Origin: Candidatus Adlerbacteria bacterium
Lineage (GTDB): Bacteria; Patescibacteriota; Minisyncoccia; Phycocordibacterales; SBAW01
Assembly: GCA_903878285.1 (NCBI GenBank)
Contig: CAIRHB010000044.1
Location: forward strand, 1-49,683
Reading direction: 5' to 3'
DNA length: 49,683 nt
Made by a program: the position numbers and the translations under genes. Positions 2,432 through 24,320 of this stretch are shown piece by piece (the stretch's first letter is position 1; each line of letters begins with the position of its first letter). The notes under the pieces were generated by a model that saw nothing but the letters and a program-made list of their open reading frames with translations, made no database searches and was not told where the DNA came from.

Positions 2432-4216
2432 GATTTCGGTGGAGAGTTTGGTGGCGATGTCGGCGATAGAAAGTGCGCCGATTTTTCCTTGGTCGCGGCT
2501 TTCGAGGGTCGCGGTCTGTGACGCAACTTCGGCATCGCCGATGACGAGCGTGTAGGGGACTTTCTCCATCTTTGCGGTGCGGATTTTCTTACCTAGCGAC
2601 TCGCTGCTGTCGTCGAGCTCGGCACGAATGCCCGCGTCTTTCAACGCAGTGAGCACTTTTGTTGCATACGCCACATGCGCGTCGCTAATCGGCAAGATCT
2701 TTGCCTGGACAGGCGAGAGCCACAGGGGGAATGCGCCCGCATAGTGCTCTATCATGACGCTCATAAAGCGCTCGAGAGAGCCGGAGATGGCGCGATGAAT
2801 AACAACAGGACGTTCCTTCTCACCTTTCTCGTTGGTGAAGGCGAGGTCGAATCGCTCGGGGAGATTGAAGTCACACTGGATGGTGGCAAGTTGGCGCTCG
2901 CGACCGAGGGCGTCCTTGAACATAAAGTCGAGCTTCGGTCCGTAGAACGCAGCCTCGCCCTCGACGCGTCGGTAGTTGAGCTTGTTTGCTTTGGCTGCCG
3001 TTTCGAGCGCAGACTCAGCGATCTCCCACACAGCATCGGTGCCCAGATAGTTGCTGCGATCTTCGCCTCGCACAGAGAGTGAGACCCAGTATCCCTCAAG
3101 CATGCCGAAGACGGTATAGAACGAATTGATGATACCTACGATGGTCGAGACTTCCTGCTCTATCTGAGATATGCGACAGAAGAGGTGTCCATCGTCTTGT
3201 GTGATCGCACGTACGCGCGAGAGCCCGCCGAGCTGACCCGACTTTTCATCGCGGTAAACCGTCGCCGGTTCGAAGTAGCGCACCGGCATGTCGCGATAGG
3301 AGAATTGGTTGTCGGCGAATATCTGCATATGGTGCGGGCAGTTCATCGGCTTCATGATGAATTTTTCTTCTTTGCCGGAGACGCGGAAGAGTTCGTCGCC
3401 AAACTTCGCGGCGTGACCCGAGACGACATACAGCTCTTCCTTTGCGATATGTGGAGTCCATACGCGGCTGTACCCCTTGTTCTTGTGGAGTTCCCACAAG
3501 AAGCTCTCGATCTCTGAGCGGATGATCATACCCTTCGGCTTCATAAGGGGGAGTCCGGCACCGATGAGATCGGAGTTGGTAAACAGGTCGAGCTCTTTGC
3601 CAAGTCTTCGATGGTCGCGCTTTGCTGCTTCTTCGCGCTGGGTGAGGTAGGCGTCCAACTCCGCTTTTGTATCAAACGCAAGGCCGTAGATGCGGGTGAG
3701 CATCGGGCGCTTCTCATCGCCGCGCCAGTACGCGCCCGCGACGCGCTCGAGCTTGAAGGAGTCAGGCGCAATCTCTTTGTTTGGGTGCTCGCAGTGGCCA
3801 CCGCGGCACAGATCGGTAAACCCGCCACAGGTGTAGAAGGTGATCGTCTCGCCCGCTTTTTCGAGGTCGTTGATGAGCTCGAGTTTGTACTCGTTGTTGG
3901 TGAAGTGTGTTCGCGCCTCGTCGGCGGTGACCACTGCGTGGGTAAAGGTACTCCACGCGGGCAGGAGCGCGCACATCTTTGACTCGATCGCGACGAGCGC
4001 ATCGTCGCCCGATGGCTTTGCTGCGCCGAAGTCGAAGTCGTAATAAAAACCGTGTTCGATTGCGGGGCCGATGGTCGGCTTTGCTTCGGGGTAGAGGTCG
4101 CCGATCGCTGCTGCTAAAACGTGTGCGAGCGTGTGTCGCTTGTGTTCGAGGTTTGCCATACCCACCAAGGGTACAACGCCCGCGCCTTCTCGGCAACTCT
4201 TTGTCCGTCCAATCAT
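2417..4216 (-). CDS. thrS: Threonine-tRNA ligase (ThrRS)
   Basis: Charges tRNA-Thr in the cytoplasm. From the 4216 start (599 aa): an editing (SAD) domain with HTLAH at 28-32 and CRGGH at 137-141, then a class II catalytic core with the zinc Cys in MNCPHH (291-296), the motif 2 arginine in YRDEKSG (321-327), a motif 3 region with RAISGSLERF, and a C-terminal anticodon-binding domain. No recognisable TGS domain precedes the editing domain. Two starts are possible: ATG 4216, with GGAG 8 nt upstream, or ATG 4159 (580 aa), where family similarity begins with MANLEHKRHTLAH. The SD favours 4216; conservation favours 4159. The leader hairpin at 4227-4252 overlaps the SD. Confidence 0.95.
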   Translation of the reverse strand: MIGRTKSCREGAGVVPLVGMANLEHKRHTLAHVLAAAIGDLYPEAKPTIGPAIEHGFYYDFDFGAAKPSGDDALVAIESKMCALLPAWSTFTHAVVTADEARTHFTNNEYKLELINDLEKAGETITFYTCGGFTDLCRGGHCEHPNKEIAPDSFKLERVAGAYWRGDEKRPMLTRIYGLAFDTKAELDAYLTQREEAAKRDHRRLGKELDLFTNSDLIGAGLPLMKPKGMIIRSEIESFLWELHKNKGYSRVWTPHIAKEELYVVSGHAAKFGDELFRVSGKEEKFIMKPMNCPHHMQIFADNQFSYRDMPVRYFEPATVYRDEKSGQLGGLSRVRAITQDDGHLFCRISQIEQEVSTIVGIINSFYTVFGMLEGYWVSLSVRGEDRSNYLGTDAVWEIAESALETAAKANKLNYRRVEGEAAFYGPKLDFMFKDALGRERQLATIQCDFNLPERFDLAFTNEKGEKERPVVIHRAISGSLERFMSVMIEHYAGAFPLWLSPVQAKILPISDAHVAYATKVLTALKDAGIRAELDDSSESLGKKIRTAKMEKVPYTLVIGDAEVASQTATLESRDQGKIGALSIADIATKLSTEIKNRA

Positions 4217-21193: not shown

Positions 21194-21748
21194 TCATGCG
21201 GTTTTCCGCGGTTTGTGTTCGATTTTATGCTCGGCGATGGATTGCCTTGCCTTTTCTATCGCGGCGTTCTCCTCCTTCGTGAGTTCGTAGGTAGAGATGC
21301 TGTTTTCGATAGGCTTAGCGTAGACGCCGACTCGGTCGCGTGCGTACAGCGTTGAAAGTACCACGCCGCTGTGCCCCTCGTCAAGAAAGGCGATCGCGAA
21401 GCTCTGGTTCCCGCTGCCGCCACTCTCGGCGAAGGGGTTAAATCGCACCATCCCGTAGCCCTGGAGGCTGCCGCGCAGGCGCAACTCGGCGTATTTGAGA
21501 TACTGCTCCAGCTCGGTACGGAAGGTCTGCAGCTCTTTCATGTCGCGCGCAAGGATGGTCACGCTCTCCTCTATAGAACCGTTGCGCCCCAGTGCCAGCC
21601 GCATAAAGCGCCACCGAATCGCGAGCAACAAAAACACCGCGACGATACTCAGTACAAGCGCCGCAAGTGCCACATAGGGCGCTGCAAGAATAATCCACAC
21701 ATGCGCGCGCTCAAGCAGCGGTGACTGAGCGATAGATGCAAAGTCCAT
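21194..21748 (-). CDS. DUF4446-family membrane protein
   Basis: 184 residues: one N-terminal transmembrane helix (about 22-45), a helical linker, then the DUF4446-type core with VRFNPFAESGGSGNQSFAIA, HSGVVLSTLYARDRVGVYAK and a C-terminal LTKEENAAIEKAR helix. Function of the family is unknown. First gene of the infB operon. Its -10 box (AGTATA read on the minus strand) ends 7 nt before the ATG and lies in a palindromic AGTATATACT that once also faced the cysteine desulfurase gene. Confidence 0.8.
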   Translation of the reverse strand: MDFASIAQSPLLERAHVWIILAAPYVALAALVLSIVAVFLLLAIRWRFMRLALGRNGSIEESVTILARDMKELQTFRTELEQYLKYAELRLRGSLQGYGMVRFNPFAESGGSGNQSFAIAFLDEGHSGVVLSTLYARDRVGVYAKPIENSISTYELTKEENAAIEKARQSIAEHKIEHKPRKTA

Positions 21749-21755
21749 GCCATCC

Positions 21756-21765
21756 AGTATATACT
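21756..21765. promoter_or_regulatory. Palindromic divergent -10 element
   Basis: AGTATATACT reads TATACT on both strands. It gives the minus gene (ATG 21748) a 7-nt gap and would give a plus gene (ATG 21771) a 6-nt gap. The plus side now leads only to a duplicated five-codon stub of the cysteine desulfurase gene. Confidence 0.6.
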
Positions 21766-21785
21766 GAAGGAATGCTGAAAGCGAA
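21757..21785 (+). repeat. 29-bp direct repeat, left copy
   Basis: Identical to 23109-23137. It holds the TATACT box, GAAGGA, the ATG and the first five codons of the cysteine desulfurase gene. Here the coding sequence is cut off and runs into REP-like DNA. Confidence 0.9.
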
Positions 21786-21800
21786 CGAAAAAAGAAAAAA

Positions 21801-21849
21801 GGTGTCAGGTACCTTTTTCTGATAAAAAGTAAAAGGTACCTGACACCTT
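21801..21849. repeat. REP-like repeats A and B (inverted pair)
   Basis: GGTGTCAGGTACCTTTT (21801-21817) and its inverted partner AAAAGGTACCTGACACCTT (21831-21849) form a 17-bp stem around a 13-nt loop. Each copy alone can also fold through AAAGGT/ACCTTT. Confidence 0.9.
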
Positions 21850-21858
21850 AAAATATTT

Positions 21859-22362
21859 ATGAACATTCCTATACAAGAATTTGGCATCACGAGAGCGAAT
21901 GAAGAGCGGCGTGATGGCGGCTGCGCCGTTGTGTACGACCCTGTTGCACAGCGTTACGCGGTTGGGTTGCGCGAGGATGGTCTGTATATTTTGTTTTCAG
22001 GGGGAGTTGCTGATGGCGAGGATATGACCGAGGGTATTTTGCGCGAGGTCCGTGAGGAAAGCGGGCTCCACGACTTTGCACATGTTGAAAAAGTGGCCGA
22101 TGCTATCGCGCACTATTATCACAAGAGTAAGAATGTGAATCGCGTCGCACACGCAACCTGCCTGTTCGTGGTGTTGTAGAGTGCTGATCTTGTTCCGACA
22201 CAGCTTGAGGCGCATGAACGTTTTACTCTTGCATGGGCGACGGCTGACGAGCTCGTTGCTAATTGGCATGCGCACAACGTCGAGCATGGCCTAGATCACT
22301 GGTTGTATTTCTTCGACCTTGCACGAGTTCGTGTCTCTGCGCTTGAAGAAAAAGGTACCTGA
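21859..22362 (+). pseudogene. NUDIX hydrolase with an in-frame amber codon
   Basis: The NUDIX box is perfect: GX5EX7REVREESGL in residues about 49-70, the Mg-binding site that hydrolyses nucleoside-diphosphate derivatives. Translation from ATG 21859 stops at TAG 22177-22179 after 106 residues. The same frame continues without another stop for 60 codons of protein-like sequence (LEAHERFTLAWATADELV, LDHWLYFFDLARV) to a TGA at 22360-22362, which lies inside REP copy C. The intact gene would have about 167 codons. This is most simply a nonsense mutation or sequencing error. The short product would lack the C-terminal helix. Confidence 0.7.
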
Positions 22363-22396
22363 CACCTTTTCCCAAATAAAGGTGTCAGGTACCTTT
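22350..22396. repeat. REP-like repeats C and D (inverted pair)
   Basis: AAAAGGTACCTGACACCTTTT (22350-22370) and its inverted partner (22378-22396) sit back to back between the NUDIX and transposase genes. Copy C provides the Gly-Thr-stop that ends the NUDIX frame. Copy D lies upstream of the transposase -10 box. Confidence 0.9.
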
Positions 22397-22417
22397 ATTG
22401 TGATATACTATATCTGT

Positions 22418-23092
22418 ATGGGCAGAGCGCTGCGCACCGATGTTGGTGGTCAAGTCTATCACGTACTTAATCGTGCGAACGCACGTGCAACTATTTTTGC
22501 AAAGAAGGCAGATTATGAATCGTTTGAAGCGATTCTTGAGGAAGCAAAAGAGAAGGCTGGTATGCGAATACTTTCATACTGTGTTATGCCCAACCATTGG
22601 CATTTGGTGCTGTATCCAAGACAGGATGGTGACCTTGCGAAGTTTGTAAACTGGCTCACGTTGACGCATACACAGCGTTGGCACGCGGCGCATGATACTG
22701 TCGGGCAAGGACATGTGTATCAGGGGCGGTACAAATCTTTCTTGTGCGAAGAGGATGCGCATTTTATACAACTCGTGCGATATGTTGAGCGAAACCCCTT
22801 GCGTGCGAGGTTAGTTGCGCGTGCGGAAGATTGGCAGTGGGGGAGTCTGTGGCGACGTTTGCACGGGACGCCTGCACAGAAAAAGCTGCTCGATGAGTGG
22901 CCAGTACCCATGCCGAAGGGATATGTGCAGTTGGTACATGAACCGCAGTCGTCGGATGAGGTGGATGCGATGCGTGCATCTATCAATCGAGGTAGTCCAT
23001 ACGGTTCGGATGGGTGGCGGAGTAATGCTATACAGAAGTTTAACCTTGAGGCGACATTGCGACCGCGCGGAAGACCGAAAAAAGGTACCTGA
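22418..23092 (+). CDS. REP-associated tyrosine transposase (RAYT, Y1 family)
   Basis: 224 residues. The HUH motif is NHWHLV in MPNHWHLVLYPRQDG; the candidate nucleophile Tyr lies in HVYQGRYKSF; RYVERNPLRARLV follows, as in IS200-like REP transposases. Such enzymes nick single-stranded hairpin repeats. TATACT ends 8 nt before the ATG. REP copy D lies upstream and copy E overlaps the 3' end, so the last residues (KGT) and the TGA are read from the repeat. The whole unit lies between 29-bp direct repeats. It looks intact. Confidence 0.88.
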   Translation: MGRALRTDVGGQVYHVLNRANARATIFAKKADYESFEAILEEAKEKAGMRILSYCVMPNHWHLVLYPRQDGDLAKFVNWLTLTHTQRWHAAHDTVGQGHVYQGRYKSFLCEEDAHFIQLVRYVERNPLRARLVARAEDWQWGSLWRRLHGTPAQKKLLDEWPVPMPKGYVQLVHEPQSSDEVDAMRASINRGSPYGSDGWRSNAIQKFNLEATLRPRGRPKKGT

Positions 23093-23100
23093 CACCTTTT
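23080..23100. repeat. REP-like repeat E
   Basis: AAAAGGTACCTGACACCTTTT, same orientation as copies B and C, containing the TGA stop (23090-23092) of the transposase gene. Confidence 0.9.
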
Positions 23101-23108
23101 ATCAAGTG

Positions 23109-23137
23109 GTATATACTGAAGGAATGCTGAAAGCGAA
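23109..23137 (+). repeat. 29-bp direct repeat, right copy
   Basis: Identical to 21757-21785. This copy is the working promoter and start of the cysteine desulfurase gene: TATACT at 23112-23117, a 6-nt gap, then ATG 23124. Confidence 0.9.
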
Positions 23138-24320
23138 GCGATTGTACCTTGATGCGGCGGCGGCTACGCCGATTTCGACGCGGGCAAAAAAAGAGTTGGT
23201 ACGCTTGCTTGATGTCTATGGCAACGCGGGTGCGCTCCACCATGAGGCGATCGAGGCAAAGCGAGAGCTCGAGGCAGCGCGCGCAGCGATTGCCGAGGCG
23301 ATTGGTGCGCATCCCGACGAGATTATTTTTACTGCGAGCGGGACTGAAGGGAACAATCTGGCTATCGAGGGCATTCTGCGACCACTGTTGATTGAACATG
23401 GTGAGCTGCATGCGGTCACGACCGCAATCGAACATATGTCGGTCATCGAGCCGCTGCGCGCGCTCGACTACGCGGGGTTGTACACCACCGAGTTGCCCGT
23501 CGACCACGAGGGACGCATCTCGACCAAAGCGCTCGAAGAGGCGATTAACGACGAAACAGTGTTCGTGTCAGTGCAGTTGGTTAATAGCGAGATAGGCACT
23601 GTGCAGCCGCTGCGCGACATTGCGAAAGTAATTCGCCGCGTACGAAAAAATCGAGGCGAGACCTCGAACCAATTGCCTTTGTATATACATTGCGATGCGT
23701 CGCAGGCACCGCTGTGGCTGCCGCTCGCAGTCGACTCGCTTGGCATTGACCTGCTCACGCTCGACGCGCAAAAAGTTGGTGGCCCAAAGGGGATTGGTGC
23801 GCTGTATGTGCGCCGAAAGACGAGCATCGAGCCCGTCATTCGCGGCGGTGTGCAGGAGTTTGGGCTGCGGGGTGGGACACCAAACGTACCGCTCGCAGGC
23901 GCGTTTGCGGTGGCGCTTACCGATGCGGCAAAGGGAGTCGAAGCGCGCGCGGTAAAGGTGGCGAAGATTCGTGACGCGCTGTGGTGTGCTATCCAACGCG
24001 CGGTGCCCGATGCGGTGCTCAATGGTCCCGAACTCGGTGATCGTCGGGTCGCAAACAATTTAAATATTTCTATACCAGGGCTGGAGGCAGAGATGGGTGT
24101 CTTGGCGCTTGATGCGATGGGCATTGCCGCCTCGACACGCTCGGCCTGCAAGACCGACGACATCGAGCCGTCGCATGTGATCGCCGCCCTCGGCACACCA
24201 AAAGAACTCGCCCAGACTGCTATCCGTTTTGCGTTGCTGCCAGAGGCGAAAAGTGCCGATATGCCCCGCGTCGCGACCGCTCTTGCTGAAATTGCAAAAA
24301 GGTATCGAAACGTTGTATAA
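23124..24320 (+). CDS. Cysteine desulfurase (NifS/IscS-like, PLP class V)
   Basis: 398 residues. Transfers sulfur from cysteine for Fe-S clusters or tRNA thiolation. Fold-type I markers: YLDAAAATPIS at the start, TASGTEGNNLAIEG, VSVQLVNSEIGTVQPL, HCDASQAP for the PLP ring, Schiff-base Lys in DAQKVGGPKGIGALYV, and the active Cys loop STRSACKTDD. The usual His before the PLP Lys is Gln here. Start taken at ATG 23124, which follows TATACT by 6 nt; the longer open frame upstream overlaps the transposase and is spurious. No iscU or thiI neighbour is visible. Confidence 0.9.
   Translation: MLKAKRLYLDAAAATPISTRAKKELVRLLDVYGNAGALHHEAIEAKRELEAARAAIAEAIGAHPDEIIFTASGTEGNNLAIEGILRPLLIEHGELHAVTTAIEHMSVIEPLRALDYAGLYTTELPVDHEGRISTKALEEAINDETVFVSVQLVNSEIGTVQPLRDIAKVIRRVRKNRGETSNQLPLYIHCDASQAPLWLPLAVDSLGIDLLTLDAQKVGGPKGIGALYVRRKTSIEPVIRGGVQEFGLRGGTPNVPLAGAFAVALTDAAKGVEARAVKVAKIRDALWCAIQRAVPDAVLNGPELGDRRVANNLNISIPGLEAEMGVLALDAMGIAASTRSACKTDDIEPSHVIAALGTPKELAQTAIRFALLPEAKSADMPRVATALAEIAKRYRNVV

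Follow-up and report, generated by a model that had tools for sequence, protein, structure and literature searches.

A TIRYT-like island inserted with a 29-bp target duplication into a divergent promoter, and similar duplications at insertions without terminal inverted repeats

To our knowledge, known Y1 enzymes insert single strands without duplicating the target. How, then, did an island encoding such a transposase come to lie between two identical copies of a promoter segment in the stretch of DNA analyzed here (49,683 nucleotides, hereafter the window)? Exact repeat comparison confirmed the 29-bp direct repeat claimed by the first-pass annotation: positions 21757-21785 and 23109-23137 both read GTATATACTGAAGGAATGCTGAAAGCGAA, with 1323 bp between them. 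The landing site is composed of the following features.

21194..21748, minus strand: DUF4446 gene, left neighbour and first gene before infB (PF14584, E 1.6e-29)
21757..21785, no strand: left copy of the target duplication (exact repeat; single copy at the empty site in the closest relative, G005/L012)
21786..23108, no strand: inserted island, 1323 bp (same site without the island in 24 relatives with adjacent DUF4446)
23109..23137, no strand: right copy of the target duplication (exact repeat; single copy in relatives)
23124..24320, plus strand: cysteine desulfurase gene (NifS/IscS-like), right neighbour (PF00266, E 2.5e-49)

The right copy provides the cysteine desulfurase gene with its -10 box, its ATG and its opening codons, and the left copy retains the -10 region of the DUF4446-infB operon together with a decapitated cysteine desulfurase start. 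Because 29 bp of promoter were copied to both sides of the island, both divergent genes retained their starts. The palindromic AGTATATACT at this divergent promoter, previously described as common to both genes, is real and is kept as AGTATA(TA)CT across most of the genus.

The cysteine desulfurase gene was sought in 60 relatives, and 29 loci were kept, all belonging to the same genus or family. In 24 of these 29 loci, the DUF4446 frame lies directly upstream in divergent orientation, a single promoter separates the two genes and the island is absent. In G005, the closest relative, 23 bp around one AGTATATACTGA separate the start codons, a spacing close to the roughly 22 bp proposed for the window without its island. 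Comparison of the whole stretch with G005 revealed 1323 bp extra in the window, and the flanks of this segment overlap by 29 bp in G005; the G005 sequence differs inside these 29 bp, whereas the two copies in the window are identical to each other. Since the genes are adjacent and one 29-bp copy is present in relatives, the island must have been inserted, duplicating its 29-bp target. The comparison that the first-pass annotation had proposed thus returned an empty site in a common divergent promoter, and neither genes that had never been adjacent nor a repeat independent of the island. Many relatives fix the polarity of this insertion in the window.

The ends of the island are defined by terminal inverted repeats (TIRs), and its content is as follows.

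21797..21818, plus strand: TIR 1, left end of the island
21830..21849, minus strand: TIR 2, hairpin partner of TIR 1 (z -9.8)
21859..22179, plus strand: NUDIX-domain cargo (PF00293), cut by an in-frame TAG at codon 107
22349..22369, minus strand: TIR 3, closing the NUDIX module on the right and overlapping the end of its frame
22378..22397, plus strand: TIR 4, opening the transposase module on the left
22418..23092, plus strand: Y1 (HUH) tyrosine transposase of TIRYT type, 224 aa (PF01797, E 2.1e-18)
23080..23101, minus strand: TIR 5, right end of the island

The five copies of GGTGTCAGGTACC alternate in orientation, and the 19-bp hairpins formed by the TIR pairs of the window have z scores of -9.8 and -7.9. 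They had been annotated as five REP-like repeats; five copies are indeed present, but they are terminal inverted repeats of a TIRYT element and not REPs. A genome-wide search for further copies, also proposed earlier, found ten exact matches to GGTGTCAGGTACC: the island holds five of them, and the other five are solo TIRs outside it. A reversed control pattern gave none, and several GGAACC-variant sites occur elsewhere in the genome besides the solo TIRs. A promoter scan identified GTGTCA in TIR 4 as a -35-like box of a transposase promoter at 22382-22409, with the TATACT of the transposase 16 nt further on, and CTGACA in TIR 5 as a -35-like box 17 nt ahead of the cysteine desulfurase TATACT, the second hexamer of the duplicated promoter; a TIR may therefore serve as the -35 box on both sides. 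The NUDIX gene, previously taken as whole, carries TAG at codon 107 of about 167, and its homology runs on to about codon 160 (near 22362); because the homology extends beyond the stop, the cargo is a broken gene. Intact NUDIX relatives (56-59% identity) have no flanking TIRs. The transposase frame, on the other hand, is intact, as had been annotated; its TGA stop falls within TIR 5, it is the sole close copy in the genome, and H60 and H62 of the HUH motif and the catalytic tyrosine Y122 are invariant in 24 aligned sequences.

Several known systems resemble this element to different degrees. TIRYT/TIRtron elements are described in passages of Di Nocera et al. (2013; PMC3733652) as having inverted ends that share GGGGWSAS, and TnpA_Y1 subclass 2.1 was defined by Quentin et al. 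(2018), in passages of PMC6006769. Like the TIRYT/TIRtron elements, the island has a gene for a Y1 HUH transposase between inverted repeats whose core resembles GGGGWSAS (GGGGTCAG exactly in many relatives, and GGTGTCAG, one base off, in the window), solo copies that make up a moderate family in the genome, and a patchy distribution; an empty site and a target duplication, which those passages do not report, are seen here, as is a cargo gene inside the unit. Subclass 2.1 is marked by a Y motif of Y[IV]ELNP or Y[IV]HLNP and by a C-terminal HTH domain; the Y motif here reads YVERNP, and a conserved C-terminal extension has a GRPKKG tail. REP/RAYT systems (REPtrons) share with the island a Y1 transposase and dispersed short palindromes that likewise form inverted pairs, but the window repeat, AAAAGGTGTCAGGTACCTTTT, has no GT[AG]G (GTAG) tag at the hairpin foot, and the transposase scores 71.5 with NF047646, under the curated cut-off of 80. 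The likeness to IS200/IS605 lies in the Y1_Tnp family domain, whereas the NF033573 score (19.1 bits) is far under the cut-off of 55, there is no tnpB, and the 29-bp duplication is, as the first-pass annotation held, not ordinary IS200 behaviour. Judged from its sequence, the element fits the description of TIRYT/TIRtron and probably that of TnpA_Y1 subclass 2.1, not that of the GTAG-tagged REPs.

Relatives of the transposase, at E values up to 1e-60, were found in 39 of 397 genomes of the order. The two nearest are each 75% identical to it, one in another genome of the same genus and one in a different family, which looks like the pattern of horizontal spread. Short repeats in an inverted pair accompany the transposase gene at nearly every locus examined, and about 30 related genes have matching inverted ends; the upstream TIR lies about 20-50 nt before the ATG, and the downstream TIR includes the TGA stop in most of the closer relatives. 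The TIR sequence varies together with the transposase gene (GGTGTCAGGTACC, GGTGTCAGGAACC, GGGGTCAGCCACC and GGGGACAGCCACC). Beside some elements, tandem partial copies of the TIR and the transposase 3' end are piled up (L100:1636 and 2854, L102:2237 and 2396, and the upstream regions of L078 and L074), as if the end had been re-copied repeatedly.

Is the duplication a property of such elements? Islands with like ends, which had been suggested as a search target, do occur with duplications in other phyla. We screened 136 TIRYT loci for exact repeats of 24 bp or longer, one copy of which had to lie no more than 75 bp from the end of the gene. In the raw count, 10 loci have such a repeat; for random placements within these loci, the figure is 9 of 2362. 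Once own-end repeats, an rhs duplication and a transposase tip present in duplicate had been removed, five of the ten were clean, with one copy just outside the right end of the island; the other 126 loci, most of which may be old, have no long repeat near the gene's end. The clean islands are those of the window (29 bp), L158 (53 bp), L192 (53 bp), L082 (about 46 bp) and L151 (26 bp; Planctomycetota), and in all except L082 no more than about 25 bp separates either duplicated copy from a TIR. In L158 (Moranbacteria), the duplication consists of the last 17 codons and stop of ftsA (FtsA domain by Pfam), and the order of TIR, membrane-protein-like cargo frame, TIR, transposase and TIR resembles that of the window. 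L192 (Thiotrichales) carries a duplication of the uvrB 3' end (UvrB domain by Pfam), and a 20-bp remnant further upstream in uvrB suggests an original duplication of about 154 bp, shortened by deletion between short matches. In L082, the cargo is a broken nucleotidyltransferase-like gene and no TIR adjoins the left copy; the search for its empty site found none, because the adjoining pheS is an extra pheS copy.

Several other repeats were rejected: a 38-bp duplication at the G042 element (L101/L076), which is a natural rhs core duplication; an 80-bp repeat at L159, a duplicated transposase 3' end; repeats of 57 bp at L174 and 28 bp at L232, which contain the element's own ends; and a 23-bp palindrome at L132. 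A 49-bp direct repeat at L097:1941-1989 and 3026-3074 (G212 contig C49) includes a TIR and was set aside; it flanks about 1 kb with an aspartyl-protease-like frame.

A control for the role of the transposase is provided by insertions without TIRs. About 730 kb of the window's genome was compared with 763 kb of G005, at 80% nucleotide identity. The list of about 50 indel calls, in which some calls overlap, includes six TIR-less insertions with target duplications of 45-84 bp. Three-way alignment confirmed these six, and their polarity is read solely from the comparison of these two genomes.

C23 of the window's genome: NYN-domain gene, 46 bp
G005 C17 (L122:4520-5430): NYN-domain gene, 52 bp
G000 contig C37 (L281:2639-3960): PemK/MazF-type gene and a second frame, 56 bp
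C3 of the window's genome: PemK-type gene, 45 bp
G005 contig C32 (L260:6840-8800): HicAB-like pair and AIPR gene, 46 bp
G005 C6: 84 bp

The names HicAB, dnaE and ftsA come from reading translations, and AIPR, PemK, NYN, FtsA and UvrB have Pfam support. The 56-bp duplication at C37 comprises the dnaE promoter and first codons, including a TATACT box and the ATG, and is present as one copy in G005, like that of the window. Duplication lengths in the genome pair are thus 29, 45, 46, 46, 52, 56 and 84 bp, and six of these seven insertions have no TIRs. Because the same genome pair has duplications at TIR-less insertions, the duplication is not peculiar to the TIRYT element: long target duplication is a general feature of gene insertion in these two genomes and not a signature of this transposase, and the control is decisive for the mechanism. 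A 99-bp duplication at C17 (L301) was rejected as two ABC-transporter paralogues. At C37, the first dnaE codons of the left copy are in frame with the PemK-type gene, which may therefore be expressed from the copied promoter. The three of the six insertions that are listed above without a locus lie at L267:8080-8800, L287:17200-17820 and L113:5870-6750.

The original account of insertion with long target duplication concerns restriction-modification genes of Helicobacter pylori (Nobusato et al. 2000, Gene 259:99, according to passages of PMC3031569, PMC1643837 and PMC4978471). The duplications of the genome pair match that type: the gene is absent from relatives, the target duplication is long and variable, long direct repeats at both ends of the window island correspond to a single copy at the empty site, and toxin- or defence-type genes are inserted in the same genomes. 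The differences are that the lineage here appears to be Patescibacteria and that one unit has its own transposase and ends. The earlier suggestion that the duplication calls for another mechanism holds in part: the duplication is of a known, if unexplained, kind of insertion that this genome has used repeatedly.

Taken with the control, these data make it probable that the island is a compound TIRYT element whose ends are set by TIRs and which landed by a generic long-target-duplication route that also serves TIR-less islands. The unit would consist, in order, of a TIR pair, the broken NUDIX cargo, a TIR pair, the tyrosine transposase and a TIR, and the TIRs, thought to be recognised by this transposase family, would define the mobile unit. 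From the family of the enzyme, we infer that it excised or copied the TIR-bounded single strand, which would then be joined at a break with distant nicks or via a template switch running back over 26-53 bp of the target. The bidirectional promoter has been split in two, each copy keeping a full -10 box and start codon and serving one gene; insertions that duplicate a gene edge would survive in a dense genome because each neighbour keeps its promoter or end. Counting against this explanation are the 126 of 136 TIRYT loci without a long repeat and the solo TIR at C2:61035 in the window's genome, which is absent from G005 and shows no duplication.

It is rather unlikely that long, variable target duplications are the work of the tyrosine transposase, through strand nicks tens of bases apart or through copying of the target while a single-stranded intermediate is inserted. 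The position of both copies within about 25 bp of the element's ends in four islands from several phylum-level groups speaks for it, as does the excess of repeats of at least 24 bp at TIRYT loci, about 20 times commoner than at random, or about 10 times for clean cases only. Evidence against it comes from duplications of equal size where the insertion, in this same genome pair, has neither TIRs nor any transposase, from the variable lengths (26-53 bp, and in L192 perhaps about 154 bp until a later deletion) and from the insertion without duplication generally known for Y1 enzymes. Equally doubtful is the broader claim that insertion by HUH transposases of the TIRYT type entails long, variable duplications (26-53 bp or more) and that these enzymes can take along neighbouring genes lying between the inverted ends. 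Natural uptake of a donor fragment that already contained part of the promoter, with homologous joining on one side and illegitimate joining on the other, is improbable: a ComEC competence gene is present and single-gene insertions with duplicated target ends are common in the genome pair, but uptake leaves unexplained why both ends lie at TIRs, and the two copies match each other exactly while G005 departs from them inside these 29 bp. An ancestral island lost from relatives by recombination between its repeats would leave exactly the observed empty site, but is very improbable, as at least 24 diverse relatives with adjacent genes would need many independent precise losses and the 29-bp copies are still identical in a genus strongly diverged at the site.

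TIRYT elements were described from their ends alone; PMC3733652 and PMC6006769 go no further than to propose their mobility, and the passages there on TIRYT and subclass 2.1 report no empty site or target duplication. New here are a filled and an empty TIRYT site, cargo between the ends, and duplications at TIRYT islands in other phyla; the pair of filled and empty sites ties the landing of a TIRYT island to a target-duplicating route. Were the duplication made by the TIRYT transposase, this would be an outcome not known for single-tyrosine HUH enzymes. Since duplications also flank single toxin-type or nuclease genes in the same genomes, the route appears to be a general one of gene gain in compact genomes, in which neighbours are not broken by the insertion because the duplicated stretch restores a promoter or gene end. 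The puzzle of long target duplication thereby becomes testable in a new lineage.

Minor observations concern TIRs outside the window. At some sites shared by both species, the solo TIRs have GGTACC in one species but GGAACC/GGTTCC in its counterpart, or stand single against paired (L001:1501 vs L094:1558, L003:1501 vs L095:1495, and L088:1557 vs L093:1577); these TIRs seem to have been converted or replaced in place. A presumed solo repeat at G005 C35:12712 was rejected as a chance match within a coding region conserved in the window. A C39-like peptidase gene lies between two GGTACC TIRs of the same orientation, without a transposase (L048:1497-2300, G005 contig C14), and is possibly a cassette moved in trans. 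Two TIRs at L089:1534 and 3677 (G000 contig C30) bound a 2.1-kb block that maps to one G005 contig, its outer flanks mapping together to another, possibly through TIR-bounded transfer. Finally, a TIRYT element is inserted in an orphan rhs core segment at L101:1544-2272 (G042 contig C13).
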